64,000 nucleotides of DNA from Arcobacter sp. CECT 8985 (GTDB lineage Bacteria > Campylobacterota > Campylobacteria > Campylobacterales > Arcobacteraceae), in the NCBI RefSeq assembly GCF_004116495.1, contig NZ_PDKC01000002.1, positions 62,001 to 126,000 of the forward strand. The letters run 5' to 3'. The first letter of the stretch is position 1. Every line of letters begins with the position of its first letter. Under the pieces are notes generated by a model. It worked only from the letters and a program-made list of their open reading frames with translations, made no database searches and had not been told where the DNA came from. Position numbers and translations under genes: made by a program. This document shows positions 1,138 to 16,695 of this stretch, piece after piece.

Positions 1138-2166
<1,029 letters not shown>

Positions 2167-2202
2167 AAAATAAAAATAATTATAAAAGAATAAGGAGAAA
2201 AA

Positions 2203-2556
2203 ATGTTTATTTGTGGATACCACTTTCCAGCTGATATGGGAAATGATGTAAGTTTTGATAAAGTTATTGAAAAAGTAGAAGATGGAGTTGATGCAAAAGG
2301 TAAAACTGTTACATTAACAAGTGAAACAAAAGAAGGAACTATTATTGAAGAATTAGTAGTTCCTGAAGGTACTTTTGCACATACAGCATTTGTTGATTAT
2401 TTTGAAAGTTCTGAAATTGAAGGTGATACTAAAATGATTTATTACACAAATAAGTATCAAATTTCTGAAATTTCAAAAAGTGTTGATAAAGAAATAACTA
2501 AAGATCTTTGTAAAAAACTTGATGATATGAATCTTTACAGAGTAAAAGTAGCATAA
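2203..2556 (+). CDS. Unknown 117-residue protein between nifH and nifD
   Basis: I do not recognise this protein. It is small, acidic and soluble, with no signal peptide, no membrane segment and a single Cys near the N-terminus (MFICGYHF) plus another near the C-terminus (DLCKKL). The middle is rich in Thr, Glu and Val and looks beta-stranded; the C-terminal third looks helical. A good ribosome-binding site (AAGGAG) precedes ATG 2203. It sits 36 bases after nifH and 18 bases before nifD, so it is almost certainly co-transcribed with the structural nitrogenase genes. The size recalls the PII-like NifI proteins that occupy this position in methanogens, but I see no PII T-loop or signature. A role in nitrogenase regulation, protection or assembly is an inference from position only. 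Confidence 0.85.
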   Translation: MFICGYHFPADMGNDVSFDKVIEKVEDGVDAKGKTVTLTSETKEGTIIEELVVPEGTFAHTAFVDYFESSEIEGDTKMIYYTNKYQISEISKSVDKEITKDLCKKLDDMNLYRVKVA

Positions 2557-2574
2557 AAAAAAAGAGGAAGTAAC

Positions 2575-4041
2575 ATGGGAGAAGAAACATTAGAAGCTCA
2601 GCAGAAACAAGTAATTGAAGAAGTTTTAAGTGCTTACCCTGCTAAAGCTGCAAAAAACAGAGCTAAACATATTGGGGTTGATAGTCCTGAGGGAGTAAAA
2701 GGTTCTTGTGACACAACAAAAAGTAACAAACAGTCAGTTCCTGGAGTAATGAGTGAAAGAGGATGCGCATATGCAGGTTCTAAAGGAGTTGTTTGGGGAC
2801 CAATTAAAGATATGATTCATATCTCTCATGGTCCTATTGGATGTGGACAATATTCAAGAGGTGGAAGAAGAAATTATTATATAGGTACAACTGGTGTTGA
2901 TACATTTGTAACTATGAACTTCTCTACTGATTTTAATGAAAAAGATATTGTATTTGGTGGAGATAAGAAATTAAAAAAAGCATTAGAAGAAATTGATGAA
3001 TTATTTCCGTTAAATAATGGTATCTCAGTTCAATCTGAGTGTCCAATTGGGTTAATTGGTGATGATATTCAATCTGTTGCAAAAATTCACAAAAAAGAGA
3101 CTGGACATCAAACAGTTGCAGTTTCATGTGAAGGGTTTAGGGGTGTATCTCAATCTCTTGGTCACCATATTGCAAATGATATGATTAGAGATCATGTTAT
3201 GCCAGATAACTCATATAAAAAAGATTTTGAATCAACTCCATATGATGTATCAATTATTGGAGATTATAATATTGGTGGAGATGCATGGGCAACAAGAATT
3301 TTATTGGAAGAAATAGGATTAAGAGTAATTGCTCAATGGTCTGGAGATGCTTCTTATAAAGAGATGGCAATTGCACCAAAATCAAAATTAAATTTACTTC
3401 ATTGTTATAGATCAATGAATTATATTTCAAGACATATGGAACAAGAGTTTGGTATTCCATGGATGGAATATAACTTTTTTGGACCTTCAAATACTACTGA
3501 AAGTTTAAGAAAAATAGCAGCTTTTTTTGATGAAAAAGTTCAAAAGAAAACTGAAGAAGTTATTGCTAAATATACAAAAATGACAGATGAGGTTATTGCT
3601 AAATATAAGCCTTTATTAGAAGGTAAAAAAGTAATGCTTTATGTTGGTGGATTAAGACCAAGACATGTTATTGGAGCATATGAAGATTTAGGAATGGAAG
3701 TAATAGGAACTGGTTATGAGTTTGCTCATGGGGATGATTATAAAAGAACAAAAGAAGATTTAAAAAGATCTACTTTAATTTATGATGATGTAAATGAGTA
3801 TGAACTTGGACAATTTGTTAAAAAAATGAGACCAGATTTAGTAGCAGCAGGTGTAAAAGAAAAATATGTATTCCAAAAAATGGGATTACCTTTTAGACAA
3901 ATGCACTCATGGGATTATAGTGGTCCTTATCATGGATATGATGCATTTGCTGTATTTGCAAAAGATATGGATTTAGCTATGAATTCACCTGTTTGGAATC
4001 ATACTAAAGCACCATGGGAAAAAGAAGAGATAGGAGCGTAA
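2575..4041 (+). CDS. nifD: Nitrogenase molybdenum-iron protein alpha chain NifD
   Basis: NifD carries the FeMo-cofactor and, with NifK, the P-cluster. P-cluster Cys ligands are C64 (ERGCAYAG), C90 (GPIGCGQ) and C156 (SECPIG). FeMoco ligands are C277 ([11 protein letters not shown]) and H444 ([14 protein letters not shown]); the cofactor-pocket residues Q193 and H197 of [14 protein letters not shown] are present. Length of 488 residues is normal for the Mo enzyme, and these motifs rule out a V- or Fe-only type. It follows the unknown small gene and is separated from nifK by a single base, which suggests translational coupling for equal subunit supply. Confidence 0.98.
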
Positions 4042-4042
4042 T

Positions 4043-5590
4043 ATGCAAGACGTAGATAATATAGTAAATGGACAAAAACTTTTTTTAAAGCCAGAATATC
4101 AAGAAGTTTTAAAAAATAAAAAACAATTTGAAAGTTCTGTTGGATCAACAGATCCCCAAAAAGTACAAGAGATTGGTGAATGGACTAAATCTTGGGAATA
4201 TAGAGAAAAAAACCTAAATAGAGAAGCAATTACAATTAATCCAGCTAAAGCTTGTCAACCTTTAGGTGCTGTTATGGTAGGACTTGGTTTTGAGAATACA
4301 ATGCCTTATGTTCATGGTTCTCATGGGTGTGTTGCATATTTTAGAACTTATTTTACTAGACATTTTAAAGAACCAACTCCTTGTGTAAGTGATTCTATGT
4401 CTGAATCAGCTGCAGTTTTTGGTGGATTAGCAAATATGAAAGATGGTTTGAGAAACTGTAATGCTTTATACAAACCAGATATGATTGCAGTTTCTACTAC
4501 TTGTATGGCAGAAGTTATTGGAGATGATTTAAATGCATTTGTATCAGGTGCAAGAGAGTACGCAGAAGGTGAATTAGATAATGTTGAAATCCCTTATGCA
4601 CATACACCATCTTTTGTTGGTTCACATATTACAGGTTATGATAATATGATGAAAGCAACATTAGAACAATTAAATCCATCAAAAGAACAAAAGGTTCTAG
4701 ATGAAGAAAGAATAAATATAATTCCTGGATTTGAGCCATATTTAGGTTCTTTAAAAGAGATTAAAAATATTTCTAAAATGTTCAGTGATAAGATTATTAT
4801 GATTGGTGATCATGAAGAGCAGTGGGATACTGGAGCTGGCGAATATAAATTATATGCTGGTGGAACAAAAATTGAAGATGCAAAAACTGCAATTAATGCA
4901 AAAACTACAATCTCTTTACAAAAATATTCTACAGTTTCAACTGCAAAAACTATTAAAAACAAATGGAAACAAGAATATGCAACTTGTAATCCAATTGGTT
5001 TAAGTGGTACAGATGCTTTTGTTATGAAATTATCTGAATTAACTAATAAAGAAGTTCCAAATGAATTAAAAAATCAAAGAGCTAAATTAGTTGATGCAAT
5101 GCAAGATTCATATCCATATATGCATGCTAAAAAGTTTGCTATTTGGGGAGATCCTGACTTCTTATTAGGTATGGTTTCTTTTTTAGTTGAAATGGGATCT
5201 ATTCCAACACACATAGTTTGTCATAATGCTCCAAGAAAAGGTTGGGAAGATGAGATGAAAGCTATATTGGAAAAATCTGATAGAGCTGAAGAGTGTAATA
5301 TTTGGCCTGGTAAAGATTTATGGGCATTAAGAAGTTTATTGTTTACTGAGCCAGTTGATTATATGATTGGTAATGTTTATGGAAAAGAGTTATATAGAGA
5401 TACAAAAATTCCATTAATTAGAATTGGTTTCCCTATATTTGATAGACACCATTTACATAGATATTCAATAAGTGGATATGAAGGTGCACTTAACTTATTA
5501 ACATGGATTACAAATTCAATTTTAGATCATTTAGATGAAGAAACTAAAAATATTGCTGAAACAGATTACTTCTTTGATTCAGTAAGATAA
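4043..5590 (+). CDS. nifK: Nitrogenase molybdenum-iron protein beta chain NifK
   Basis: NifK is the beta subunit of the alpha2-beta2 MoFe protein and completes the P-cluster. The Cys ligands are C71 (KACQPLGA), C96 (GSHGCVAYF) and C154 (TTCMAEVIGDD). Length of 515 residues is close to the Azotobacter protein. The N-terminal region before C71 is of the long form seen in Mo nitrogenases. It is last in the nifH operon: a strong intrinsic terminator begins immediately after the stop codon. The assembly genes nifE, nifN and nifB are not in this window. Confidence 0.98.
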   Translation: MQDVDNIVNGQKLFLKPEYQEVLKNKKQFESSVGSTDPQKVQEIGEWTKSWEYREKNLNREAITINPAKACQPLGAVMVGLGFENTMPYVHGSHGCVAYFRTYFTRHFKEPTPCVSDSMSESAAVFGGLANMKDGLRNCNALYKPDMIAVSTTCMAEVIGDDLNAFVSGAREYAEGELDNVEIPYAHTPSFVGSHITGYDNMMKATLEQLNPSKEQKVLDEERINIIPGFEPYLGSLKEIKNISKMFSDKIIMIGDHEEQWDTGAGEYKLYAGGTKIEDAKTAINAKTTISLQKYSTVSTAKTIKNKWKQEYATCNPIGLSGTDAFVMKLSELTNKEVPNELKNQRAKLVDAMQDSYPYMHAKKFAIWGDPDFLLGMVSFLVEMGSIPTHIVCHNAPRKGWEDEMKAILEKSDRAEECNIWPGKDLWALRSLLFTEPVDYMIGNVYGKELYRDTKIPLIRIGFPIFDRHHLHRYSISGYEGALNLLTWITNSILDHLDEETKNIAETDYFFDSVR

Positions 5591-5724: not shown

Positions 5725-5738
5725 GGAACACTTTTTGC
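5724..5738 (+). promoter_or_regulatory. Sigma-54 promoter of the reductase-flavoprotein-nifT operon
   Basis: AGGAACACTTTTTGC has GG at 5725-5726 and GC at 5737-5738 with correct spacing. The surrounding 20 bases (5721-5740) are identical to the element before the ferredoxin gene at 13034-13053. It overlaps the stop codon of the upstream microprotein. Confidence 0.8.
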
Positions 5739-5788: not shown

Positions 5789-6901
5789 ATGTCTTATGCA
5801 ACACCTCAATCAACATATAATTTTGCAAAAAAATTTTCATCTTATAAAGATTTTTATGTTAAACATAATGATTTAGTTTTTTCAAGATTAGGCTTAGGTA
5901 CTTTTAATAAAGAGCCTTATAAAGAAGAAAATTATGTTTTTCATTATATAGAAGGTGTTAAAGAAGCAATAAAAAATGGAATAAATTTAATAGATACAGC
6001 AAGTAATTATAGATATGGACAAAGTGAAAAAGAAATAGCAATAGCATTAAAAGAGTTATTCAATGAAAATAAAGTAACAAGAGAAGAGTTGATTATTTGT
6101 TCAAAAGCTGGATTTATTCAACTTGACTATCCTTTCCCAAAAAATCCGTATATGTGGATTGAAGAAAATATTATAAATACTAACTTGGCAAGAAAAGAAG
6201 ATATTGAATTAGATCAACACTGTATGACACCTGATTTTATAGAGTGGTCATGTAAAAAATCATTAAAAAACTTGCAAATTGATTCAATAGATATTTTCTT
6301 TTTACATAATCCAGAAATGCAATTAATGTCACTTGGTTATAAAAATTTATTAAAACAAGTAGAAAAAGTATTTAAAAGATTTGAAAAAATGGCTGATTGT
6401 GGACTTATAAAATATTATGGAGTTGCTGTTTGGAATGCTTTTATTAATAGTGAAGATTCAAAAGAGCATATAAATTTAGAAGATTTAGTTAATATTGCAA
6501 TTAAAGTAGGTGGGGAAAATCATAGATTTAAATATATTCAAACGCCATTTAATTTAGCAAAAACTTCAATATATACTTTGCAATCACAAAAAGTTAAAAA
6601 TGAAAAATGTACTTTACTACAAGCTGCACATAGATTAAATATTGGTTTAATTTCAAGTTCATCTTTATTACAAATGAATCTTTTTAAACGCTCTTTTAAA
6701 GCAGAAATGGGATATTTACTAGATTCACAAATGATTTTAGAAAATGATATTCAACTTGCATTACAATTTGTTCGTTCAACACCTGGAATTATTAGTTCAC
6801 TATTTGCTTCAAAAGTTCCTGTACATATTAAGAAAAATTTAGAAATAACAAAAATTAAATCAGTACCAAGAAAAAAGTATGATTTAATGTATAAAGTTTA
6901 A
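5789..6901 (+). CDS. Aldo/keto reductase family protein
   Basis: A TIM-barrel NAD(P)H-dependent oxidoreductase of the aldo/keto reductase superfamily. All four catalytic residues can be placed: D69 and Y76 in IDTASNYRYG, K106 in ICSKAG and H173 in FFLHNPE. At 370 residues it is longer than the usual 310-330; the extra lies in a loop after the lysine (about residues 110-150) containing a Cys and in the C-terminus. The physiological substrate cannot be read from sequence. Ribosome-binding site AAGGAA precedes the ATG. It is first in an operon with a flavoprotein (2-base gap) and nifT, downstream of a sigma-54 promoter, so it should be made only when nitrogenase is made. Confidence 0.88.
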   Translation: MSYATPQSTYNFAKKFSSYKDFYVKHNDLVFSRLGLGTFNKEPYKEENYVFHYIEGVKEAIKNGINLIDTASNYRYGQSEKEIAIALKELFNENKVTREELIICSKAGFIQLDYPFPKNPYMWIEENIINTNLARKEDIELDQHCMTPDFIEWSCKKSLKNLQIDSIDIFFLHNPEMQLMSLGYKNLLKQVEKVFKRFEKMADCGLIKYYGVAVWNAFINSEDSKEHINLEDLVNIAIKVGGENHRFKYIQTPFNLAKTSIYTLQSQKVKNEKCTLLQAAHRLNIGLISSSSLLQMNLFKRSFKAEMGYLLDSQMILENDIQLALQFVRSTPGIISSLFASKVPVHIKKNLEITKIKSVPRKKYDLMYKV

Positions 6902-6903
6902 TT

Positions 6904-8553
6904 ATGATTTATGATGTAATTATAGTAGGTGGAGGAATTTCTGGTTTAATGGCAGCTATTGAAGCTAAAACATCTTCAAACAAAGTAGCAATAATTACAA
7001 AAGGTAATATTTTTAAATCAAATTCATCAATGGCATGTGGTGGAATAAATGCTGTTTTAGATGAAAAAGATAATCAAAAAATTCAATCTCATATAGAAGA
7101 TACATATAAATCTTCATTAGGTTTAGCAAATTTACAAAATATTACATATATGTGTAATCGTGCAAGTAAGATTATATCAAAATTAAAACTTTATGGGGTT
7201 GATTTTGATAAAGATGAATCAGGTAATATAATGCAAAGACCTTTTGGTGGAGGAAGACATAATAGAACATGTTATGTAAAAGATAAAACTGGAAGTGCAA
7301 TTACTCAGGTTTTAATAAAACAAGCAAAAAGATTAGGTATCACTTTTTTAGTTAATACTTTTGTTTTAAATCTTTCAACACATAAAAAAAGAGTAAGTGG
7401 TGTAATTGCTTTAAGAAGGGTTGATTCAAATGTATTAGTTTATCCTGCTAAATCTGTAGTATTTGCAGGTGGTGGGTATGCAGGAATATTTAGAGGTAAT
7501 TCCACAAATGCACAAGATTATACTGGAGATCTAACTGCTGTTTGTTTAAGAGCAGGATTAACTTTGAAAGATATGGAATTTATTCAATTTCATCCTACTG
7601 GAATTAAAAAGACAAATTATTTGGTAACTGAAGCGGCAAGAGCAGAAGGAGGATATTTAGTCAATGAAAATAATGAAAGATTTGTTAATGAATTAGATAC
7701 AAGAGATAAAATTGCAAAAGCCATAATACAACAACAAAATAATCATAAAAAAGTATATATTGATTTAAGGCATTTAGGTTTAAACAAAATTCAACAGAAA
7801 CTTCCATCTTTATATAATGCTGCATTTAATCAAGTTGGTATTGATATAAGTAAAGAGTTACTTCAAATTAAACCTGTTGCTCATTATAGTATGGGTGGAG
7901 TTGAAGTTATAAATATGGTAGAAAGCAAAATTGCAGGACTATTTATTTGTGGAGAAATGGCAAACACACAAGTTCATGGGGCAAATAGATTAGGTGGAAA
8001 TTCATTATTGGAAGCGACAGTTTTTGGTGAATTAGCTGGACAAAAAGCTTTGAGTTATAGTTGTGAAAATAGTTTTGAGATAATTAATTATAACAATGTA
8101 ATAAAAGATATAGAGATGATAGATTATATTTTTTCTTCTGATAGTTCAAAAAATTTTAATGCAATTAGAGTTTCACTTGGTAATTGTATGTATGAAAATG
8201 TTGGAATAATTAGAACTGAAGATAGCTTAATTAAAGCATTTGATTACATAAAATATCTAAGAACACAATCTTATACTTTGCACTGTATAAATAAAGAAAG
8301 AAGAAATAATGTTGAGCTTACTTCAATTTTAGAATTAAGAAATGCTCTTGAAATATCAGAAGCAATTATATTAAGTGCTAATTTAAGAAAAGAGAGTAGA
8401 GGATCTCATTTTAGAGAAGATTATCCTTCTTTAGATGAATATTATAACAAACATATTTTGGTTAATGAAATAAAGAAAGGTTTTTTTAAACTAGAATTTG
8501 AAGAAAATAGTTTTTTATCAAGTATTAGAAGTTTATTGATAAATAAAAATTAA
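6904..8553 (+). CDS. FAD-dependent oxidoreductase of the fumarate reductase/L-aspartate oxidase family
   Basis: A 549-residue flavoprotein with an N-terminal dinucleotide-binding motif (VGGGISG, residues 8-14) and the family signatures FIQFHPTG, EAARAEGGYLVN, AHYSMGG and VHGANRLGGNSLLE, and a C-terminal RGSHFREDYP. The HYSMGG and RLGGNS versions are closer to SdhA/FrdA than to NadB. The residue that binds FAD covalently in SdhA/FrdA (His before the AxxGGIN motif) is missing here (SNSSMACGGIN), so the FAD should be non-covalent as in NadB. There is no iron-sulfur or membrane-anchor partner next to it. Possible roles are a soluble fumarate reductase, an aspartate-oxidase-like enzyme or an electron-disposal protein. 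It follows the aldo/keto reductase by two bases and precedes nifT in a sigma-54-controlled operon. Confidence 0.85.
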   Translation: MIYDVIIVGGGISGLMAAIEAKTSSNKVAIITKGNIFKSNSSMACGGINAVLDEKDNQKIQSHIEDTYKSSLGLANLQNITYMCNRASKIISKLKLYGVDFDKDESGNIMQRPFGGGRHNRTCYVKDKTGSAITQVLIKQAKRLGITFLVNTFVLNLSTHKKRVSGVIALRRVDSNVLVYPAKSVVFAGGGYAGIFRGNSTNAQDYTGDLTAVCLRAGLTLKDMEFIQFHPTGIKKTNYLVTEAARAEGGYLVNENNERFVNELDTRDKIAKAIIQQQNNHKKVYIDLRHLGLNKIQQKLPSLYNAAFNQVGIDISKELLQIKPVAHYSMGGVEVINMVESKIAGLFICGEMANTQVHGANRLGGNSLLEATVFGELAGQKALSYSCENSFEIINYNNVIKDIEMIDYIFSSDSSKNFNAIRVSLGNCMYENVGIIRTEDSLIKAFDYIKYLRTQSYTLHCINKERRNNVELTSILELRNALEISEAIILSANLRKESRGSHFREDYPSLDEYYNKHILVNEIKKGFFKLEFEENSFLSSIRSLLINKN

Positions 8554-8562
8554 GGAGAGAGT

Positions 8563-8769
8563 ATGGCAAAAGTAATGTTAAGAGAAAAAGATGAAAAAAT
8601 ATACTTTTATATTGCAAAAAAAGATATGGAAGAAATAATAGAGAGTTTAGAATTTAATACACCTGATAATTGGGGTGGAGAGGTTGAATTATCAAATGGT
8701 GAAACTTGGTGGATAAAGCCAGGAGTGAAAAAATTACCCAAAGAAGAAGTTTGTAAAAAAATAAAATGA
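8563..8769 (+). CDS. nifT: NifT/FixU family protein
   Basis: A 68-residue protein matching the NifT pattern: MAKVMLRE at the start, an IAKKDMEE segment near residue 18 (YVPKKDLEE in Azotobacter), and the core NWGGEVELSNGETWWI near 37-52. NifT is a small nitrogenase-associated protein of unsettled function, usually found just after nifK or nifD and dispensable in tested organisms. Here it closes the reductase-flavoprotein operon, nine bases after the flavoprotein, and is separated from nifK by about 3 kb. Ribosome-binding site AAGGAGAG precedes its ATG. Confidence 0.88.
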   Translation: MAKVMLREKDEKIYFYIAKKDMEEIIESLEFNTPDNWGGEVELSNGETWWIKPGVKKLPKEEVCKKIK

Positions 8770-8834: not shown

Positions 8835-8868
8835 ACAACTATAATATTTGATAATGAAGGACAAGAAT

Positions 8869-10413
8869 ATGGCACTTTTTGATAAAACAGCATGTATGAG
8901 TTGTCTTACATTAAAGGAATTAACAACTTTATATGATATTGCATCAGTAATATCAAATCATTACGATTTAGAGACTTCATTAGAAAAATCAATGAAGATA
9001 TTAAAAAACTCTTTACACCTAACAAATTGTTCGGTTCATCTTCTAGAAGAAGACGACATACTAAATGTATTTGCATCTGTTGAACTAAGCGTGATTCAAA
9101 AAAAATTATCATGTTACAAGTTAGGTGAAGGAGTTACTGGTTTAGCAGCTGAATCAAAAGAACCTGTAGTAGTTGAAAATATACATAGTGATTCTTTATT
9201 TTTAAATAAATCGGGAAAAAGAGATTTAAATAATTTGTCATATGTAGCTGTTCCTTTAATTATAGAAGATGAAACTTTAGGTGTTTTGGGAGCTACTTTA
9301 ACAAAAACAACTGAAATAGGATTTGATGACTGTGTTAGAATTTTAACTATAGTTTCATCAATTTTTGCGCAATCAATATATTCATATCTTTTAAATAAAA
9401 AAGAGAAAGAGAGATTAAAAGAGTTAAAACTCTACTATAAAATGGAATGGGATTCAAAAGTACATAATTTTGGGGATATTATTGGGGACAGCCCTAAAAT
9501 GAAGCAAGTTTTTAATGCAATTCAAAGAATTGCTCAATCTGATGTGACTGTATTTGTTCGTGGAGAAACAGGTACTGGAAAAGAGCTAGTTGCTGCTGCT
9601 ATTCATAAAAGAAGTAAAAGAAAAGATGAACCGTTTATCAAATTAAACTGTGCAGCAATAACAGATAGTTTATTGGAAAGTGAACTTTTTGGACATGAAA
9701 AGGGTGCTTTTACTGATGCAAAAGAGACAAGAAAAGGTAGATTTGAACTTGCAGATGGGGGAACTTTATTTTTAGATGAAATCGGAGATATTTCAGCTTC
9801 TGCACAAGTAAAATTATTAAGAGTTCTACAAGAAAGAGAGTTTGAAAGAGTTGGTGGAAATAAGACTATTAAAGTAAATGTAAGACTTATTGCTGCAACA
9901 AATAGGAATCTTGAAGAGATGGTAAAACATGGAGATTTTAGAGAAGATTTATATTATAGATTAAATGTTATTCCAATTGATTTACCTCCACTAAGACAAA
10001 GAGGAGATGATATAAAACAATTAGTAGAATTTTTTCTTGAAAAAGCAATTAGAAATCATAAAAAAAGAGTAAGTATAACACCTGAAGCAATGGATATTTT
10101 AGCAACTTATCCTTGGCCTGGTAATGTAAGAGAACTTGAAAATACAATTGAACGAATTGTTTTAATGGGAAATGAAACAGGTGTAACAAAACATGATATG
10201 CTTTTATTACTTCCTGCATTAAATGATGATAATTTAAAAAAAGAGTATAAAACTATTCAATTAAAAAATAAAACACTTGACGAATTAGAAAAAGAAGCAA
10301 TTGAAAATGCTTTAATTAATAATAATTTAAATCAAGAATATGCAGCAACTGAGTTAGGGTTGACTTTTGAACAAATTAATAAAAAAATAAAAGAGTATGG
10401 AATATTACAATGA
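8869..10413 (+). CDS. nifA: Nif-specific sigma-54 activator NifA
   Basis: NifA is the enhancer-binding protein that opens sigma-54 promoters of nif genes. Order of parts: an N-terminal CMSC pair (C9, C12), a GAF domain (about 20-175), an AAA+ domain with Walker A GETGTGKE (232-239), the sigma-54 contact loop GAFTDA (279-284), Walker B LFLDEIGD (300-307), and a C-terminal Fis-type helix-turn-helix ending KEYGILQ. The loop has Asp where GAFTGA is canonical. The interdomain Cys pair of oxygen-sensitive proteobacterial NifA is absent. ATG 8869 is chosen because AAGGA (8857-8861) is well spaced; a TTG at 8848 would add seven residues. Its stop overlaps the next gene by four bases. Confidence 0.93.
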   Translation: MALFDKTACMSCLTLKELTTLYDIASVISNHYDLETSLEKSMKILKNSLHLTNCSVHLLEEDDILNVFASVELSVIQKKLSCYKLGEGVTGLAAESKEPVVVENIHSDSLFLNKSGKRDLNNLSYVAVPLIIEDETLGVLGATLTKTTEIGFDDCVRILTIVSSIFAQSIYSYLLNKKEKERLKELKLYYKMEWDSKVHNFGDIIGDSPKMKQVFNAIQRIAQSDVTVFVRGETGTGKELVAAAIHKRSKRKDEPFIKLNCAAITDSLLESELFGHEKGAFTDAKETRKGRFELADGGTLFLDEIGDISASAQVKLLRVLQEREFERVGGNKTIKVNVRLIAATNRNLEEMVKHGDFREDLYYRLNVIPIDLPPLRQRGDDIKQLVEFFLEKAIRNHKKRVSITPEAMDILATYPWPGNVRELENTIERIVLMGNETGVTKHDMLLLLPALNDDNLKKEYKTIQLKNKTLDELEKEAIENALINNNLNQEYAATELGLTFEQINKKIKEYGILQ

Positions 10414-10916
10414 TTTATAAAAATGAAAAATTTGACTTAATTGATGAGTTTATTGATATTGGTTATATGGCAGAAGATTTTGAAGTAAAAGATATAAATG
10501 ATAACAGTAAAATTATCAAAAAATCAAATGAAAAAAGAGATATACAAATATTTATTTCTTTTCCTAATTATGAAGATTTTAAAGAGGAAATCACTTTTTT
10601 TGATGAATTTATAAATGGTGCAAAAGTTGATATTTATACTTATTTGATTTTTAATAAAAAAATACAATTACCTACTTTTAAAAAATTAATTCCTGTTTTT
10701 GATATTGAAGAAGATTTTGCATGTATGTATGGAACTCAAATATTAAATGGTACATTTAAAAATAAATTAACAAAAGCACTTTTTATAATTGGAAAAGATG
10801 GTGCAATATACCATATTGATATGCCAAATGATTTAGAAGATAGTTTTAATTTAGAATTAGTAAGAGTTGAATTAAATAAAGTATATCAATCTTATACAGG
10901 AGTTGGTTGTCATTAA
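10410..10916 (+). CDS. Thiol-peroxidase-like (thioredoxin-fold) protein lacking the peroxidatic Cys
   Basis: The second half aligns by eye with thiol peroxidase Tpx: PVFDIEEDFACMYGT and then TKALFIIGKDGAIYHIDMP near residues 121-139 match the Tpx segments around its YGV and AVFVLDKDG motifs. In the region where Tpx has its PSxDTPVC active site this protein reads FISFPNYEDFKEE (48-60) with no Cys. Only C105 and C167 occur in the whole 168 residues. It therefore should not be a classical peroxidase and may bind a partner or redox signal. The ATG overlaps the nifA stop (ATGA at 10410-10413), so the two are translationally coupled. A role in oxygen or redox control of NifA or nitrogenase is inferred from that coupling alone. 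Confidence 0.7.
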   Translation: MIYKNEKFDLIDEFIDIGYMAEDFEVKDINDNSKIIKKSNEKRDIQIFISFPNYEDFKEEITFFDEFINGAKVDIYTYLIFNKKIQLPTFKKLIPVFDIEEDFACMYGTQILNGTFKNKLTKALFIIGKDGAIYHIDMPNDLEDSFNLELVRVELNKVYQSYTGVGCH

Positions 10917-10934: not shown

Positions 10935-10949
10935 AGGAACAACTCTTGC
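10935..10949 (+). promoter_or_regulatory. Sigma-54 promoter of the SIR2-like/clpX operon
   Basis: AGGAACAACTCTTGC has GG at 10936-10937 and GC at 10948-10949, with the same spacing as the nifH element. Its -12 half covers the upstream TTG (10946) that could otherwise be taken as a start codon, which supports ATG 10982 as the real start. Confidence 0.78.
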
Positions 10950-10981
10950 ATATAAATAAAAAACACAAGATAGGCTGCTTT

Positions 10982-11806
10982 ATGGAAGAATTAATTAGTA
11001 AACTTAAAACTGGGCAAGTAATTCCTTTTTTGGGAATGGGTGTTTTCGAAAATACTATTACAAAAGATGGACAAATATTACCACATGATAGTGATTCGAT
11101 GATTTTAGCTTTAAATAATAATAGAGCAATGAGTCCAAGACTAATGTATGAATACTCAAGAGCTGCAATGAGTTTAGAACAAAGAAAAGGAAGAGATTTT
11201 ATCACTCAGATGACTAATCATATTTACTCTTCAAAACAGTATGAAATTCCTTTGGTTTATAGTTGGTTAAAAGATATTAAACCTAGATATATAATAGATA
11301 CTAACTTAGATGACAGCTTACAAAAAATATATTCAGATGTAGATCATTTTTTAATAACTGGTGTTTCAAGAATTACTGCTGATTATGATAGGTTTATTAT
11401 TTATAAATATGATACAAAATCAAAAAATTATAAAAGAATAAAAAAAGAAGAATTAACTTTAAATTTACCAATTTTATTTAAACCTATGGGGTCAACAAAA
11501 CCAGATATGAATTTTATTATTTCTGATGCTGATTTTGTTGATTGGTTAACAGAAGCTATGGGTGGTTATGCAATGCCAACTATTTTAAAAGAGTTTAGAA
11601 AAGGTAAAGAGTACTTATTTTTAGGCGTTGACTTTTCTAGGGATACATTTAGAATGGTAGCAAATGAGATAACTATTGATTTAGATGGTGGAGTTGTTTT
11701 ATTAAATAAACAACAGTTAAGTAAAAAAGAGGATAAATTTATTAAATCTCATAATTTAGAAAATATAAATATGAATATTGATGAATTTATAAATAGCTAT
11801 GAATAG
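10982..11806 (+). CDS. SIR2-like domain protein, nif-associated
   Basis: A 274-residue protein with the outline of the SIR2_2 family: an N-terminal glycine-rich nucleotide loop VIPFLGMGVFENT (13-25), the RYIIDTNLDD motif (102-111) that corresponds to the TTNYD segment, the ILFKPMGS segment (164-171), the SDADFVDWL helix and the YLFLGVDFSRD strand (211-221). In the family ILFKPMGS is usually KLHGS; the catalytic His is replaced by Met169. Some enzymatic activity could therefore be lost while NAD-type nucleotide binding is kept. It is first in a sigma-54-driven pair and overlaps the following clpX gene by eight bases. A role with ClpX in nitrogenase turnover or NAD sensing is an inference. Confidence 0.75.
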   Translation: MEELISKLKTGQVIPFLGMGVFENTITKDGQILPHDSDSMILALNNNRAMSPRLMYEYSRAAMSLEQRKGRDFITQMTNHIYSSKQYEIPLVYSWLKDIKPRYIIDTNLDDSLQKIYSDVDHFLITGVSRITADYDRFIIYKYDTKSKNYKRIKKEELTLNLPILFKPMGSTKPDMNFIISDADFVDWLTEAMGGYAMPTILKEFRKGKEYLFLGVDFSRDTFRMVANEITIDLDGGVVLLNKQQLSKKEDKFIKSHNLENINMNIDEFINSYE

Positions 11807-13037
11807 TACATGTGATTTTTGTGGTAAAAATATAAAAGATGTAAAGAAAATCTTTAGTAGTGAAAAAGCACATATTTGTGATGAATGTATAGATATGTGT
11901 TTTAATGTATTACAAAAAGAGTCTTTAAAAGAGTATAAACAACAATTTCAAAAGGGTCTAAATGTACCTGTTAGTATAAAAGAGCATTTGGATGATTATG
12001 TAATTGGTCAAGATGATGCAAAAAAAGTACTTGCAGTTGCTTTATATAATCATTATAAAAGAATAGATAAACCAACTATAAAAAATATAGAACTAGAAAA
12101 ATCAAATATAATGTTAGTTGGTCCAACAGGTTCAGGTAAAACTTTACTTGCAAAGTCTTTAGCAAAAATAATGGATGTTCCTTTTGCAATTGCAGATGCA
12201 ACAGCATTAACTGAAGCTGGATATGTGGGAGAAGATGTAGAGTCAATTTTATCAAGATTATTATCTGCAGCTGATTTTGATTTGGAAAAAGCAAAAAGAG
12301 GAATTGTTTATATTGATGAAATAGATAAAATTGCAAACAAAAGTGAAAGTGCAACTAGTGGAAGAGATGTAAGTGGAGAAGGGGTTCAACAAGGATTACT
12401 TAAAATACTTGAAGGTGCAGATGTTTATGTTCCTGTAAAAGGTAGTAGAAAAAATTCAAGTGCAGAAACAATTCTTTTTGATACTACACATGTTTTATTT
12501 ATTTGTGGTGGAGCATTTGTAGGTCTTAGAAAAGAAGATGAAAAACAAAAAGAGACTGTTATGGGGTTTTTAAATGAACGTGGAATTGAGAGTAAGACAC
12601 AAAAAGAGATTGAATCAAAAGAGTTGATTTCATTTGGATTGATTCCAGAGTTTATAGGTAGAATTCCAGTAGTTGCAGAGTTAAATAAACTTTCAAAAGA
12701 AGATCTTATAAGAGTTCTTAAAGAACCTAAAAATGCCATTATAAAACAGTATGAAATTCTTTTTGAACTTGATGGTGTTGAACTTATATTTGAAGATGAA
12801 GCACTTGAAGAAATAGCTCAAATTGCAGTAGAAAAAGATGTTGGAGCAAGGGGACTTAGAGGTATAATTGAAAAATATATGTTTCCTTTACAATACTTAA
12901 TACCTTCTGATGATAAAGTTGAAACTTGTATTATTACAAAAGGTTATATACAAGGTACAAGTGATGTAACATTGGTTAATTCAAAACAAAAAACAAAGAC
13001 TAAAAAAGAGATAAAATATAAAGATATAGAGAAATAA
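11799..13037 (+). CDS. clpX: ClpX paralogue (ClpX2-type AAA+ unfoldase) of the nif island
   Basis: A full-length ClpX (412 residues): zinc-binding domain C5, C8, C27, C30; Walker A GPTGSGKT (108-115); pore loop GYVGED (141-146); Walker B IVYIDEID (169-176); sensor-2 GARGLR near 352. The ClpP-docking loop, IGF in most ClpX, reads MGF (255-257), so ClpP docking looks retained. ClpX unfolds substrates for ClpP. In Azotobacter a second ClpX encoded with nif genes (ClpX2) controls NifB and NifEN levels, and this gene's sigma-54 operon suggests the same job. The housekeeping clpX should lie elsewhere in the genome. Start overlaps the SIR2-like gene; the stop overlaps the next sigma-54 promoter. Confidence 0.92.
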   Translation: MNSTCDFCGKNIKDVKKIFSSEKAHICDECIDMCFNVLQKESLKEYKQQFQKGLNVPVSIKEHLDDYVIGQDDAKKVLAVALYNHYKRIDKPTIKNIELEKSNIMLVGPTGSGKTLLAKSLAKIMDVPFAIADATALTEAGYVGEDVESILSRLLSAADFDLEKAKRGIVYIDEIDKIANKSESATSGRDVSGEGVQQGLLKILEGADVYVPVKGSRKNSSAETILFDTTHVLFICGGAFVGLRKEDEKQKETVMGFLNERGIESKTQKEIESKELISFGLIPEFIGRIPVVAELNKLSKEDLIRVLKEPKNAIIKQYEILFELDGVELIFEDEALEEIAQIAVEKDVGARGLRGIIEKYMFPLQYLIPSDDKVETCIITKGYIQGTSDVTLVNSKQKTKTKKEIKYKDIEK

Positions 13038-13051
13038 GGAACACTTTTTGC
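13037..13051 (+). promoter_or_regulatory. Sigma-54 promoter of the ferredoxin gene
   Basis: AGGAACACTTTTTGC has GG at 13038-13039 and GC at 13050-13051. The 20 bases 13034-13053 equal 5721-5740 exactly, including the TAA stop of the upstream gene at both places. Confidence 0.8.
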
Positions 13052-13087
13052 ATCTTGTTTTTATAAATTTCATATGAAGGATTAAAT

Positions 13088-13474
13088 ATGGCAGTTAGAA
13101 TTACTGATGAGTGTATTAGTTGTGAAGCATGTGCAAGTGAATGTCCTGTTGCAGCAATTTTAGAAGAAGGAAATGAAAAAAATCCAAATGAAGATTTTTT
13201 CTATGTAAAACCAGAAAGTTGTGTTGAGTGTGTTGATCATGCTGATTCTCCAAGATGTGCTGAAGCTTGTCCAACAGAAGGTGCTATTGTTTGGGATATG
13301 CCTTATACTGAAGAGTTTAATGATTATTATGCTTTAAGAAATGAAGAAGGTATATATAAAATTAGAGAACATAAGAAAAAAGGTTTAATGTTGCCAATTG
13401 TTAAATCACAAAAATTTAATGAAGCGATTTCTTTAGAGCAAAGGCAAGCAGCTGAATTTGTACAAGATTTTTAA
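13088..13474 (+). CDS. 2[4Fe-4S] ferredoxin of the nif island
   Basis: A 128-residue ferredoxin. The first cluster motif is CISCEACASEC near residues 9-19 (Cx2Cx2Cx3C). The second is CVECVDHADSPRCAEAC (Cx2Cx8Cx3C) near 45-61; the eight-residue spacing is that of the Allochromatium-type low-potential ferredoxins. About 60 residues follow the second motif as a helical tail. With its own sigma-54 promoter in the nif island it is a good candidate for an electron donor to NifH or to a NifB-type assembly step, as FdxN does elsewhere. Ribosome-binding site AAGGAT precedes the ATG. A terminator hairpin overlaps the stop codon. Confidence 0.9.
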   Translation: MAVRITDECISCEACASECPVAAILEEGNEKNPNEDFFYVKPESCVECVDHADSPRCAEACPTEGAIVWDMPYTEEFNDYYALRNEEGIYKIREHKKKGLMLPIVKSQKFNEAISLEQRQAAEFVQDF

Positions 13475-13584: not shown

Positions 13585-14310
13585 ATGAAAAAGATATTAG
13601 TTTTTCTTATGTCATTAGTTGTGTTCGCAAATGCACACTTTTTAATGATGACTACAACTACAGATAATGTATCAAGTAAAAAACAATCAACAATAGAAAT
13701 TAAGTCAATGTTTATTCACCCTTTTGAACAAAATGGAATGGAAATGGTAAAACCAGTTGGTATATATGTTAATAGTAAAAAAAATCCACTACCTTTAAAA
13801 AGTTTTACTAAATTTAATCATACAGCTTGGGAAACATCATATAAAATAAAAAGACCTGGTGTTTATAAATTTTTTACTATTCCAAAACCATATTTTGAAC
13901 CAGCTGAAGCTAAGTTTATTTCTCATGTTCCTAAAATAATTGTAAGTGCATATGGATTAGAAGAGGGGTGGGATAAACCTATTGGATTAAAATATGAAAT
14001 AGTACCTATGACTAAGCCTTTTGGTTTATATGCAGGAAATATTTTTACAGGAAAAGTACTTCACAATGGGAAACCAGTTTCAAATGTAGAAGTTGAAGTT
14101 GAATTATATAATGAGTTTAAGTTAAAAGCACCAACTTCAGCACACATAACACAAGTTGTAAAAACAGATGAAAATGGTAACTTTTCTTTTGTAATGAATC
14201 ATAAAGGTTGGTGGGGATTTGCTGCACTAATAGAAGAAGGAACAAAAATGCATGATGGGAAAAAATATCCAATTGAAAATGGTGCATTGCTTTGGATAAA
14301 AGCTTATTAA
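13585..14310 (+). CDS. nikK: NikK-like periplasmic component of ECF nickel/cobalt importer (DUF4198)
   Basis: A 241-residue exported protein with signal peptide ending VFANA before HFLMM, so the mature protein would begin with His. The body matches the DUF4198 pattern (GLYAGNIFTGKVLHNGKPV, TDENGNFSF, KGWWGF). Proteins of this family (NikK) accompany ECF-type nickel transporters. It starts an operon with CbiM/NikM-, NikL-, CbiQ- and CbiO-type genes, 12 bases before the next. Substrate could be cobalt rather than nickel. No NikR-type palindrome or cobalamin riboswitch was seen in the 110 bases upstream; a -10-like TATAAT lies near 13558. Confidence 0.75.
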   Translation: MKKILVFLMSLVVFANAHFLMMTTTTDNVSSKKQSTIEIKSMFIHPFEQNGMEMVKPVGIYVNSKKNPLPLKSFTKFNHTAWETSYKIKRPGVYKFFTIPKPYFEPAEAKFISHVPKIIVSAYGLEEGWDKPIGLKYEIVPMTKPFGLYAGNIFTGKVLHNGKPVSNVEVEVELYNEFKLKAPTSAHITQVVKTDENGNFSFVMNHKGWWGFAALIEEGTKMHDGKKYPIENGALLWIKAY

Positions 14311-14322
14311 AAAGAGGATAAA

Positions 14323-14925
14323 ATGCATATTTCAGATGGAGTTTTAAGTGTACAAGTAGCTACAACACTTGGTGTTGTAGCAGTAGGAATGTGTGCATAC
14401 TCTTTAAAAAAAATGAAAAATAAAGATATCTCATTGTGTGCAGCAATGAGTGCACTTTTTTTTATAGCTTCTTTTATACATATTCCTTTAGGACCTACCC
14501 AGATACATCTAGTCTTAGTAGGAGTTATTGGTGCATTTTTAGGTAGTATGAGTTTTTTACCAATTGCAATAGCTTTAATTTTACAAGCAACTCTTTTAGG
14601 TTATGGTGGAATAACATCTTTAGGCGCTAATATAGTTGTAATGGCTTTACCTGCATATTTGGTATATATTATTTTAAGAATGAATATTTTAAATAAATTA
14701 AATGAAAAGATAAAGTTTTTTATTATAGGATTTTTAGGAGTATTTTTTGCAACAGTATTACTTGCATTAGTTTTATTATTTGCAAAAAGTGAATATGCAA
14801 TTGCATCATATGCTATAGTTTTGGCATATATTCCTGCAATGGTATTAGAAGGTATAATTACACTATTTTTATTGATGTATATAAAAAAAGCTATGCCTGG
14901 TTTATTAAAAGAGTATAAAATATGA
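14323..14925 (+). CDS. nikM: CbiM/NikM substrate-binding membrane component
   Basis: A 200-residue multi-span protein beginning MHISDGVLS, the characteristic N-terminus of CbiM/NikM in which the amino terminus and His2 coordinate the metal ion. The core HIPLGPTQIHLVLVGVIGAFLG also fits the family. CbiM/NikM is the S-component that binds Ni2+ or Co2+ and defines specificity in the ECF transporter. The start is fixed by the required MHI N-terminus and by AGAGGA upstream. The gene overlaps the next by four bases. Confidence 0.9.
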   Translation: MHISDGVLSVQVATTLGVVAVGMCAYSLKKMKNKDISLCAAMSALFFIASFIHIPLGPTQIHLVLVGVIGAFLGSMSFLPIAIALILQATLLGYGGITSLGANIVVMALPAYLVYIILRMNILNKLNEKIKFFIIGFLGVFFATVLLALVLLFAKSEYAIASYAIVLAYIPAMVLEGIITLFLLMYIKKAMPGLLKEYKI

Positions 14926-15407
14926 GATTATTAATAATATTTTTTTTATTAGCAAGTTCTTTATTTGCACATAAATTAAGTCTTTTTACAGATTATGAAA
15001 AAGGAACTTTATTTATAGATGCTTATTTTGCAAATGGTAATGGATGCCAAAATTGTGAAGTTAAAGTTAAGACTTTAGATGGAAAAATCATAAAGCAGCT
15101 TAAAACGGACACAAAAGGTGAAGCAAATATTGATATAAATAAGAAAAAATTTGTTGTTATAGTAAATGCTTGGGGCGGACATATTGCAAGACAAGAAGTC
15201 TCTTTAGATGATAAGATACCAAATAATGAAAGCAAAACTATAGAACATAGTGTTCAAAAATCTGATTTGGAAAAAGAGAATGAGAAATTAAGAGCAAAAG
15301 TAAAATTATTAGAGCAACAATTGCAATATCTAAATTTTGCAAAAATTATTTTTGCTATTTTTATTATTATTGGAATTTTTTATGTTTTAAAAAGAGTTAA
15401 AAAGTGA
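14922..15407 (+). CDS. nikL: NikL-like component of ECF nickel/cobalt importer
   Basis: A 161-residue protein with an N-terminal signal peptide ending SLFA before HKLSLF, a carboxypeptidase-regulatory-like beta domain with NGNGCQNCEVKV, a coiled coil (LEKENEKLRAKVKLLEQQ) and one C-terminal membrane span. This is the architecture of NikL, an auxiliary component of nickel ECF transporters. As in the NikK-like protein, the predicted mature N-terminus is His. It overlaps nikM and the following cbiQ-type gene by four bases each. Confidence 0.75.
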   Translation: MRLLIIFFLLASSLFAHKLSLFTDYEKGTLFIDAYFANGNGCQNCEVKVKTLDGKIIKQLKTDTKGEANIDINKKKFVVIVNAWGGHIARQEVSLDDKIPNNESKTIEHSVQKSDLEKENEKLRAKVKLLEQQLQYLNFAKIIFAIFIIIGIFYVLKRVKK

Positions 15408-16048
15408 TATTTTCCCCTGCCATATCTTTGATTAGTGCATTTTTATTTTCAAGTGTAGTAAGTTTTTCTTCTTATGAAATTTACTACTTATTGCCAATAC
15501 TTCTTATTTTATTTTATAATAAAAATTATATTTTAAAAATATTAAAAACTTTAGTTTTATTAAATTCATTTATTCTAGCTTTGAGTATAGTTTTATATAT
15601 AGAAAATCAACCAAATGAAGCTATAAATATATTTATTAGAACTAATATGATTATTTTATTTAATATTTCTATTTTTTATAATTCTAGAGGATATGATATT
15701 GTAAGGGGATTTAATCTTTTGAAATTTCCAGATAGTTTTATTTCAACTACTTACTTTACATTAAAAATGATTGATAATTTAACTAATGATTTTAAAAGTA
15801 TAAAAAATACATTAAGAGCTAGAGGTTTTCAAGCAAAAACTAATCTTTTTACATATTATACTTTTGGAAATATTCTTGGAATGCTTTTTATAAAATCAAT
15901 AAGAAAATCATATAAGTTAAAAGAGTCTTTTATTCTTAGAGGTTTTAATAAAAAAATATATTTAAATGATGAATTTATAGTAACAAAAAAAGATAAGATT
16001 TTAATTTTACTAATTTTATTAGTAATAATTTTAAAGGTAACATTATGA
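15404..16048 (+). CDS. nikQ: CbiQ/NikQ transmembrane (T) component
   Basis: A 214-residue integral membrane protein of the CbiQ/EcfT family. The two arginine-centred motifs that contact the ATPase are recognisable as LRARGFQ (near 141) and ILRGFNKK (near 180). It is short for the family and has about five hydrophobic spans. It couples ATP hydrolysis by the following NikO protein to release of metal from NikM. Overlaps on both sides show tight translational coupling. Confidence 0.82.
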   Translation: MIFSPAISLISAFLFSSVVSFSSYEIYYLLPILLILFYNKNYILKILKTLVLLNSFILALSIVLYIENQPNEAINIFIRTNMIILFNISIFYNSRGYDIVRGFNLLKFPDSFISTTYFTLKMIDNLTNDFKSIKNTLRARGFQAKTNLFTYYTFGNILGMLFIKSIRKSYKLKESFILRGFNKKIYLNDEFIVTKKDKILILLILLVIILKVTL

Positions 16049-16695
16049 GTTGTTCAATAACACTAAAAAATATCTCTTATAAAAATGAAAATAGACAACT
16101 TTTTTCAAATGTAAGTTTAAATGTAGGACATGAAGAAAAAGTTGCAGTTGTTGGAGCAAATGGAGCAGGGAAGAGTACCTTACTTAAAATAATAGCAGGA
16201 CTTCAATACTCATATAATGGAGAATTAGAGCTCTTTCATAATAAAATATCCTCAAAAAAAGAGTATAAAGAATTTAGAAGTGATGTGGGATATTTACCTC
16301 AAGATGTAAATGATTATTTTTTATGCCCAGTTGTTATTGAAGATGTAATGTTCAATCTAAGAGCAAAGGGAATAAAAAAAGAAGAGGCTTATCATAAAGC
16401 TGTTTTAATGTTAGAAGAGTTAGGTATATCACATTTAAAAAATAGAGTTATTTATGAACTTAGTGGAGGTGAACAAAAAATTGTTGCACTTGCAGGAATA
16501 TTAATTACTAAACCAAAAATATTACTTTTAGATGAACCTACAAATGCATTAGATTCAAATGCTGAAGAAAAAATTATTAATATTTTAAACTCTATAAAAA
16601 AATCAATGATTATAGTATCCCATCATAAAAGTTTTATTGAAAAATTAGCTCCAAGTGTTTATAAACTAAATGAGAATGGTTTAGAGAAAATTTAA
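16045..16695 (+). CDS. nikO: CbiO/NikO ATP-binding protein
   Basis: The ABC ATPase of the importer, 216 residues. Walker A GANGAGKST (about 37-45), signature LSGGEQK (about 136-142), Walker B ILLLDEPT (about 157-164) and switch His in VSHHKS are all present. It overlaps the end of nikQ by four bases and closes the operon; no clear terminator follows. Confidence 0.9.
   Translation: MSCSITLKNISYKNENRQLFSNVSLNVGHEEKVAVVGANGAGKSTLLKIIAGLQYSYNGELELFHNKISSKKEYKEFRSDVGYLPQDVNDYFLCPVVIEDVMFNLRAKGIKKEEAYHKAVLMLEELGISHLKNRVIYELSGGEQKIVALAGILITKPKILLLDEPTNALDSNAEEKIINILNSIKKSMIIVSHHKSFIEKLAPSVYKLNENGLEKI

Follow-up and report, generated by a model that had tools for sequence, protein, structure and literature searches.

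Arrangement of the SIR2-like and clpX2 genes

The nif cluster of Arcobacter sp. CECT 8985 encodes a SIR2-like protein whose gene runs into that of a ClpX unfoldase, and this raises the question of what a relative of the sirtuins does in a nitrogen fixation locus and whether it works with ClpX. A preliminary description of this DNA had proposed a nucleotide-sensing adaptor that picks substrates for ClpX. The stretch analyzed here in its entirety, referred to as the window, is 64,000 nucleotides long.

The SIR2-like/clpX pair lies inside a Campylobacterota nif cluster, all of it on the + strand. The cluster begins with nifH, a small ORF, nifD and nifK (1255-5590), whose products matched TIGR01287, TIGR01282 and TIGR01286 above cut-off. 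These are followed by an aldo-keto-reductase-like gene, a gene for a flavoprotein similar to fumarate reductase and aspartate oxidase, a NifA-type sigma-54 activator gene (8857-10413; GAF-AAA-HTH; TIGR01817, E=5e-151, slightly below the model cut-off), a gene for a thiol-peroxidase-like protein of 168 aa (10410-10916), the SIR2-like gene (274 aa; 10982-11806, from the ATG at 10982 to the stop at 11806), clpX, which we designated clpX2 (412 aa; 11799-13037, ATG at 11799 and stop at 13037), and a 2[4Fe-4S] ferredoxin gene (13088-13474) with its own -24/-12 element at 13038-13052. The overlap with a full clpX gene that had been described earlier measures 8 bp by ORF coordinates, between the end of the SIR2-like gene and the start of clpX2. 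The aldo-keto-reductase-like and FrdA/NadB-like genes (5789-8553, between nifK and nifA, with a -24/-12 element at 5725) are kept in many Campylobacterota nif clusters. Directly 3' of the nif ferredoxin gene are genes for a DUF4198 protein and a CbiM/CbiQ/CbiO-like metal-uptake operon (13585-16695).

A pattern match to a sigma-54 promoter (-24/-12) lies at 10936-10950 on the + strand, 5' of the SIR2-like gene (GGAACAACTCTTGCA). It is found at the same position in genus mates with small changes, and the strict pattern occurs five times in the window against 0.47 expected. The pair therefore has a predicted sigma-54 promoter ahead of it, as the preliminary description had proposed. The search for NifA upstream activator sequences (TGT-N10-ACA) near this promoter showed no enrichment, with 21 matches against 21 expected, a count that is uninformative. 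In R. capsulatus, the SIR2 family protein Rcc03262, whose gene adjoins nifT, was detected in the wild type and undetected in a nifA double mutant (PMC6925177).

The SIR2-like protein has lost the catalytic pair of its fold

The window protein matched the Pfam SIR2_2 profile PF13289 (E=6.7e-9; 36.4 bits against a gathering score of 24.5), which agrees with its earlier assignment, and the profile was matched by 102 of 102 family members. Comparison of the AF2 model (pLDDT 95.1) with ThsA gave a Z of 18.5 over 231 residues with an rmsd of 3.2, indicating a Rossmann-type SIR2 fold. The best solved folds were the ThsA, KomC and DSR2 NADases, with Z between 16 and 18.5 over about 230 residues.

The motif KPMGS occupies residues 167-171, and Met169 (codon at 11486-11488, + strand) stands at the catalytic His position of the SIR2 NADases, as had been read from the motif before; Asn108, the catalytic Asn of TNxD, is kept. 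An intact Asn/His pair was found in none of 190 nif members, which fall into two types. Type I (98 members, the window protein among them) keeps the Asn of TNxD in nearly all cases and has Met or Leu at the catalytic His position (His in 0 of 98); type II (92 members) has Trp at the Asn position in 92 of 92 and the catalytic His in 3 of 92. The closest readable non-nif relatives have TTNYD or TSNYD with KMHGS, or TTNYD with HFHGR, in the same alignment columns. Because these nearest relatives keep the pair at the same columns, the loss is specific to the nif family and the columns can be taken as correctly assigned. The closest non-nif relatives found (L297, L298 and L299) are two-part proteins with a catalytic-looking SIR2 domain (TTNYD or TSNYD, KMHGS).

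Residues common to both types include G18 and mostly G20, at the start of the dinucleotide loop, P34, E66, D110, G127, P168, G170, S181-D182-x-D184-x-V186, T190-E191, G215 and R224, and the GxG of the loop is largely kept in the family. These results indicated that the SIR2-like protein is a nif-specific pseudo-sirtuin, which has the fold of the SIR2 NADases and sirtuins and from which the catalytic residue pair is gone. NCBIfam holds no model for the family, and no assigned role, no report of lost catalytic residues and no link to ClpXP was found in the literature searched on SIR2 family nif proteins.

An active enzyme of this fold would be an NAD-dependent lysine deacetylase or NADase of nif proteins. 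Deacetylation has been proposed for Zymomonas ZMO1821, a protein that rises during N2 fixation in cells where Nif proteins are acetylated (PMC8600466). The SIR2 fold agrees with such an activity, but the replacement of His by Met or Leu in 98 of 98 type I proteins, together with Trp for Asn in 92 of 92 and His in 3 of 92 type II proteins, stands against it, as does the retention of both residues in the non-nif relatives. The residue pattern of the family, taken from relatives, would likewise speak against the deacetylase proposal, and we regard an active enzyme as very unlikely. The resemblance to antiphage NADases, the closest solved folds, could also mean that a defence SIR2 gene hitchhiked into the nif cluster. 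We found this hardly credible, since the window protein gave no PADLOC hit, has no effector or sensor domain and has lost the catalytic pair, and since the tracking with nif across two phyla described below contradicts it. Carriage of the SIR2-like gene by viruses or phages was also considered, and no such relatives were found.

The SIR2-like gene tracks with nifH

The SIR2-like gene was present in 30 of 30 nifH-positive genomes among the 104 genomes of the window's family; the one additional carrier, in which nifH was not detected, is a genome 76% complete. Across 397 Campylobacterota genomes, both genes occurred in 71, nifH only in 4, the SIR2-like gene only in 1 and neither in 321, so that the SIR2-like gene was found in 71 of 75 nifH-positive versus 1 of 322 nifH-negative genomes. 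The corresponding numbers were 44, 6, 1 and 70 in a Rhodocyclales family sample of 121 genomes (44 of 50 nifH-positive genomes; two distant, low-scoring SIR2 matches excluded) and 25, 4, 1 and 291 in 321 Gammaproteobacteria (25 of 29), a class used in the GTDB sense and hence including the Betaproteobacteria. Fisher tests of the association gave p = 2e-72, 3e-25 and 5e-32 for the Campylobacterota, Rhodocyclales and Gammaproteobacteria samples, respectively, values that overstate independence because the genomes are related. Presence and absence of the gene also follow nifH within genera. A profile search for SIR2-like genes missed through divergence in genomes that have nifH only found none in the nif regions of G263 and G110 or the contigs of G324 and G424. 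In genome G316 the nif cluster is decaying as a whole (L097, 6370-15341), with nifH, nifD, nifK, the SIR2-like gene and clpX2 all broken.

Type I proteins occur in Campylobacterota, Rhodocyclales and other Beta- and Gammaproteobacteria; those from outside the Campylobacterota are 36-43% identical to the window protein and are often encoded near nifH and draT. Type II proteins, 20-27% identical, are encoded in nifB operons of Pseudomonadota. On rhizobial symbiotic plasmids, a relative with 24-26% identity occurs in the order nifB-fdxN-nifZ-nifT-SIR2 or nifS-nifT-SIR2-nifB. Genes of nif operons lay beside the SIR2-like gene at 80 of 80 loci, taken from at least 567 confirmed relatives in species genomes. 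These results showed that the SIR2-like protein goes with nif as such, and that this association is more general than the pairing with ClpX.

At the Rhodocyclales loci L249-L268, the type I gene is often found close to draT, 5' of nifH and divergent from it. The nearness of draT in this nifH region, and a dinucleotide loop whose GxG is largely kept, would suit an NAD(H) or ADP-ribose sensor that tunes nitrogenase switch-off with the ADP-ribosyltransferase DraT. However, DraT was missing from 40 of 40 nif-positive Campylobacterota genomes searched, which rules out a partnership with DraT as the general role of the family, and P. stutzeri A1501 was reported to be without DraT and DraG (PMC2820453). 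We consider such a sensor quite improbable.

Mutant evidence from P. stutzeri

The phenotype of a probable family member is available from P. stutzeri A1501, in which PST1325, adjacent to nifH, was induced about tenfold under N2 fixation (PMC2820453). In a non-polar PST1325 mutant, nitrogenase activity fell to 23% of the wild-type level, a larger defect than for any other of the nine genes tested (PMC2820453; 2010), and later annotation placed the product in the SIR2 family (PMC11332353). We infer from its position beside nifH and its annotation that PST1325 belongs to type I. By analogy with this 2010 mutant table, nitrogenase probably reaches its full activity only when the SIR2-like protein is present. 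For a conserved protein on which activity depends but whose enzyme fold is dead, binding is the likeliest function. That the mutant loses activity argues against a simple delivery adaptor: since A. vinelandii ClpX2 reportedly regulates NifB and NifEN levels, loss of such an adaptor should raise both. A gatekeeper or client-holding factor would fit the mutant better.

ClpX2 is a nif-dedicated unfoldase with an altered loop

ClpX2 of the window matched NCBIfam NF003745 (E=8.9e-165) and TIGR00382, both above cut-offs, and has the C4 zinc finger, Walker A and B motifs, GYVG pore loop, xGF ClpP-docking loop and sensor 2. The genome encodes a second, housekeeping ClpX elsewhere that is 50% identical to ClpX2. 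The RKH loop of ClpX takes part in recognition of the C-terminal ssrA tag; it is a common feature and does not define the ClpX fold or the unfoldase core. GRKH was found in 18 of 18 housekeeping ClpX proteins versus 0 of 57 Campylobacterota nif ClpX proteins, which have RKN, RKS, KKN or KKS instead (RKN in the window, 12447-12455, + strand) and retain the zinc finger, Walker motifs, GYVG loop and xGF loop. Since the RKH loop helps to recognize the ssrA tag, it is fair to infer that ClpX2 has an altered choice of tags.

In a ClpX tree with long branches, the Campylobacterota nif copies formed one clade and the nif copies of Azoarcus and Aromatoleum grouped with betaproteobacterial housekeeping ClpX. 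These two groupings indicate, with the same caution about long branches, that nif ClpX was recruited separately in the two lineages, and the tree thus rules out a single origin. At locus L262 (about 3480-4650), in the order draT, SIR2, CorA-like and ClpX-like, the ClpX-like gene encodes no zinc finger and has EYVN for the GYVG pore loop.

The SIR2-like/ClpX2 pairing is not obligate

Among 40 Campylobacterota contexts, clpX2 lay downstream of the SIR2-like gene on the same strand and within 0.8 kb in 34, was 5 kb off behind inserted genes in 1, and was absent from 5. It was kept in 17 of 18 contexts without nifA nearby, from which it follows that the pair outlasts other neighbours. A ClpP gene lies between the two genes in 12 contexts (L082-L093, mostly from family f7; in L082 at 7995-8588). 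In Azoarcus and Aromatoleum the order is SIR2-ClpP-ClpX-nifHDK, and the ClpX there derives from the local housekeeping gene.

The expectation that the pair would be conserved in other diazotrophs was borne out in these Campylobacterota (34 of 40), and a separately derived set occurs in Azoarcus and Aromatoleum. Genus g41 and genome G409 have the SIR2-like gene and only the housekeeping ClpX, without ClpX2, and G263 has the nif ClpX2 without the SIR2-like gene. At 76 of 80 Pseudomonadota-type loci, drawn from at least 567 relatives, no ClpX was found near the SIR2-like gene in the stretch examined. The pairing is therefore not obligate, and where there is no dedicated ClpX, as is the case for many SIR2-like genes, the protein works with the housekeeping ClpX or independently of ClpX.

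These exceptions bear on the main alternative, in which the SIR2-like protein serves nitrogenase assembly or stability by a mechanism unrelated to ClpX, and ClpX2 is a nif-regulon gene that became its neighbour. Most Pseudomonadota members are encoded in nifB operons or next to nifH with no ClpX gene alongside, and g41 keeps the SIR2-like gene without ClpX2. An activity defect like that of the PST1325 mutant (PMC2820453) would be equally compatible with a general assembly factor and with a ClpX partner. Against this alternative stand the survival of the SIR2-ClpX2 order through neighbour loss, in 17 of the 18 contexts without nifA, and a SIR2-ClpP-ClpX order in two phyla whose ClpX was separately derived. 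We take it seriously and find it somewhat doubtful.

A thiol-peroxidase-like neighbour

The product of 10410-10916 matched thiol peroxidase (Tpx) structures by profile (E=2.5e-13) and lacks Cys at both the peroxidatic and the resolving position. Its C-terminus, Y-T/N-G-x-G-C-H followed by at most one further residue, was invariant in 30 of 30 proteins, and the last residues were modelled with low confidence, as expected of a flexible tail. In the 40 Campylobacterota contexts the gene was present in 30 of 35 with ClpX2 versus 0 of 5 without, and the Tpx-like protein is a probable third member of the SIR2/ClpX2 module. Because this exposed, invariant tail adjoins a ClpX with an altered tag loop, the arrangement suggests that the tail may be a tag or tether for ClpX2, possibly a thiol-sensitive one. 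A bolder reading is that the core of Tpx-like protein, SIR2-like protein, ClpX2 and, in places, ClpP is a proteolysis switch reserved for nitrogenase and made out of two dead enzymes. The altered RKH loop would recognize the GxGCH tail as a thiol-sensitive tag or tether, the pseudo-sirtuin would report dinucleotide state, and assembly proteins would be unfolded or spared according to redox and energy. We think this unlikely.

Proposed role of the pseudo-sirtuin

The reading that we favour, tentatively and with belief and doubt close to balanced, is that the nif pseudo-sirtuin keeps assembly proteins usable by binding them, and gates ClpX2 where ClpX2 exists. The protein would be expressed with the nif genes. 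It would bind a protein of Nif assembly, whether or not the former NAD pocket also holds a dinucleotide, and the assembly proteins of nitrogenase would thereby stay usable. A nif-dedicated ClpX, in some cases with ClpP, would work with it in Campylobacterota and, separately, in some Betaproteobacteria; by holding or gating the client, the pseudo-sirtuin would decide whether ClpX2 unfolds that client. The SIR2-like protein would then interact physically with ClpX2, and it may bind a nucleotide. The client may be NifB or NifEN, by analogy with A. vinelandii ClpX2, which reportedly regulates the levels of both (a finding attributed to Martinez-Noel, 2011). The earlier observation holds and goes beyond chance. 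The earlier interpretation as a whole is partly supported, and an adaptor that picks substrates for ClpX is a plausible candidate.

The broader result is a nif-specific pseudo-sirtuin family that lacks an NCBIfam model; Campylobacterota and some Betaproteobacteria have a form of it coupled to ClpXP. The protein is encoded in nearly all nifH-positive genomes sampled from Campylobacterota and Beta- and Gammaproteobacteria. Should its function be to protect or sort the proteins that assemble nitrogenase, it would be a missing part for nitrogenase transfer to new hosts, for which NifB instability is a known hurdle (PMC5715403). The lost catalytic residues also give a direct test of the deacetylase proposal made for Zymomonas.

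Comparison with known systems

The Tpx-like protein shares its sequence profile with thiol peroxidase and differs from it in having no Cys at the two catalytic positions and in its invariant flexible tail (YTGxGCH). Campylobacterota ClpX2 resembles A. vinelandii ClpX2 in being a second ClpX in the nif regulon, and unlike it adjoins a SIR2-like gene and has a changed RKH loop. In P. stutzeri, clpX2 (PST1358) lies between nifM and nifF (PMC6053447, PMC2820453).

The antiphage SIR2-domain NADases ThsA, KomC and DSR2 are like the window protein in whole-chain fold, SIR2_2 profile and, for type I, the TN.D region. Unlike them, the nif SIR2-like proteins are single-domain proteins encoded in nif clusters with no defence partner, type I without the His and type II without the Asn. 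PST1325, Rcc03262, ZMO1821 and item 5 of the Rhodovulum operon, which the literature has treated as uncharacterised or as a deacetylase, share with the window protein a SIR2 annotation and a nif location, and are nif-induced or NifA-dependent where measured.
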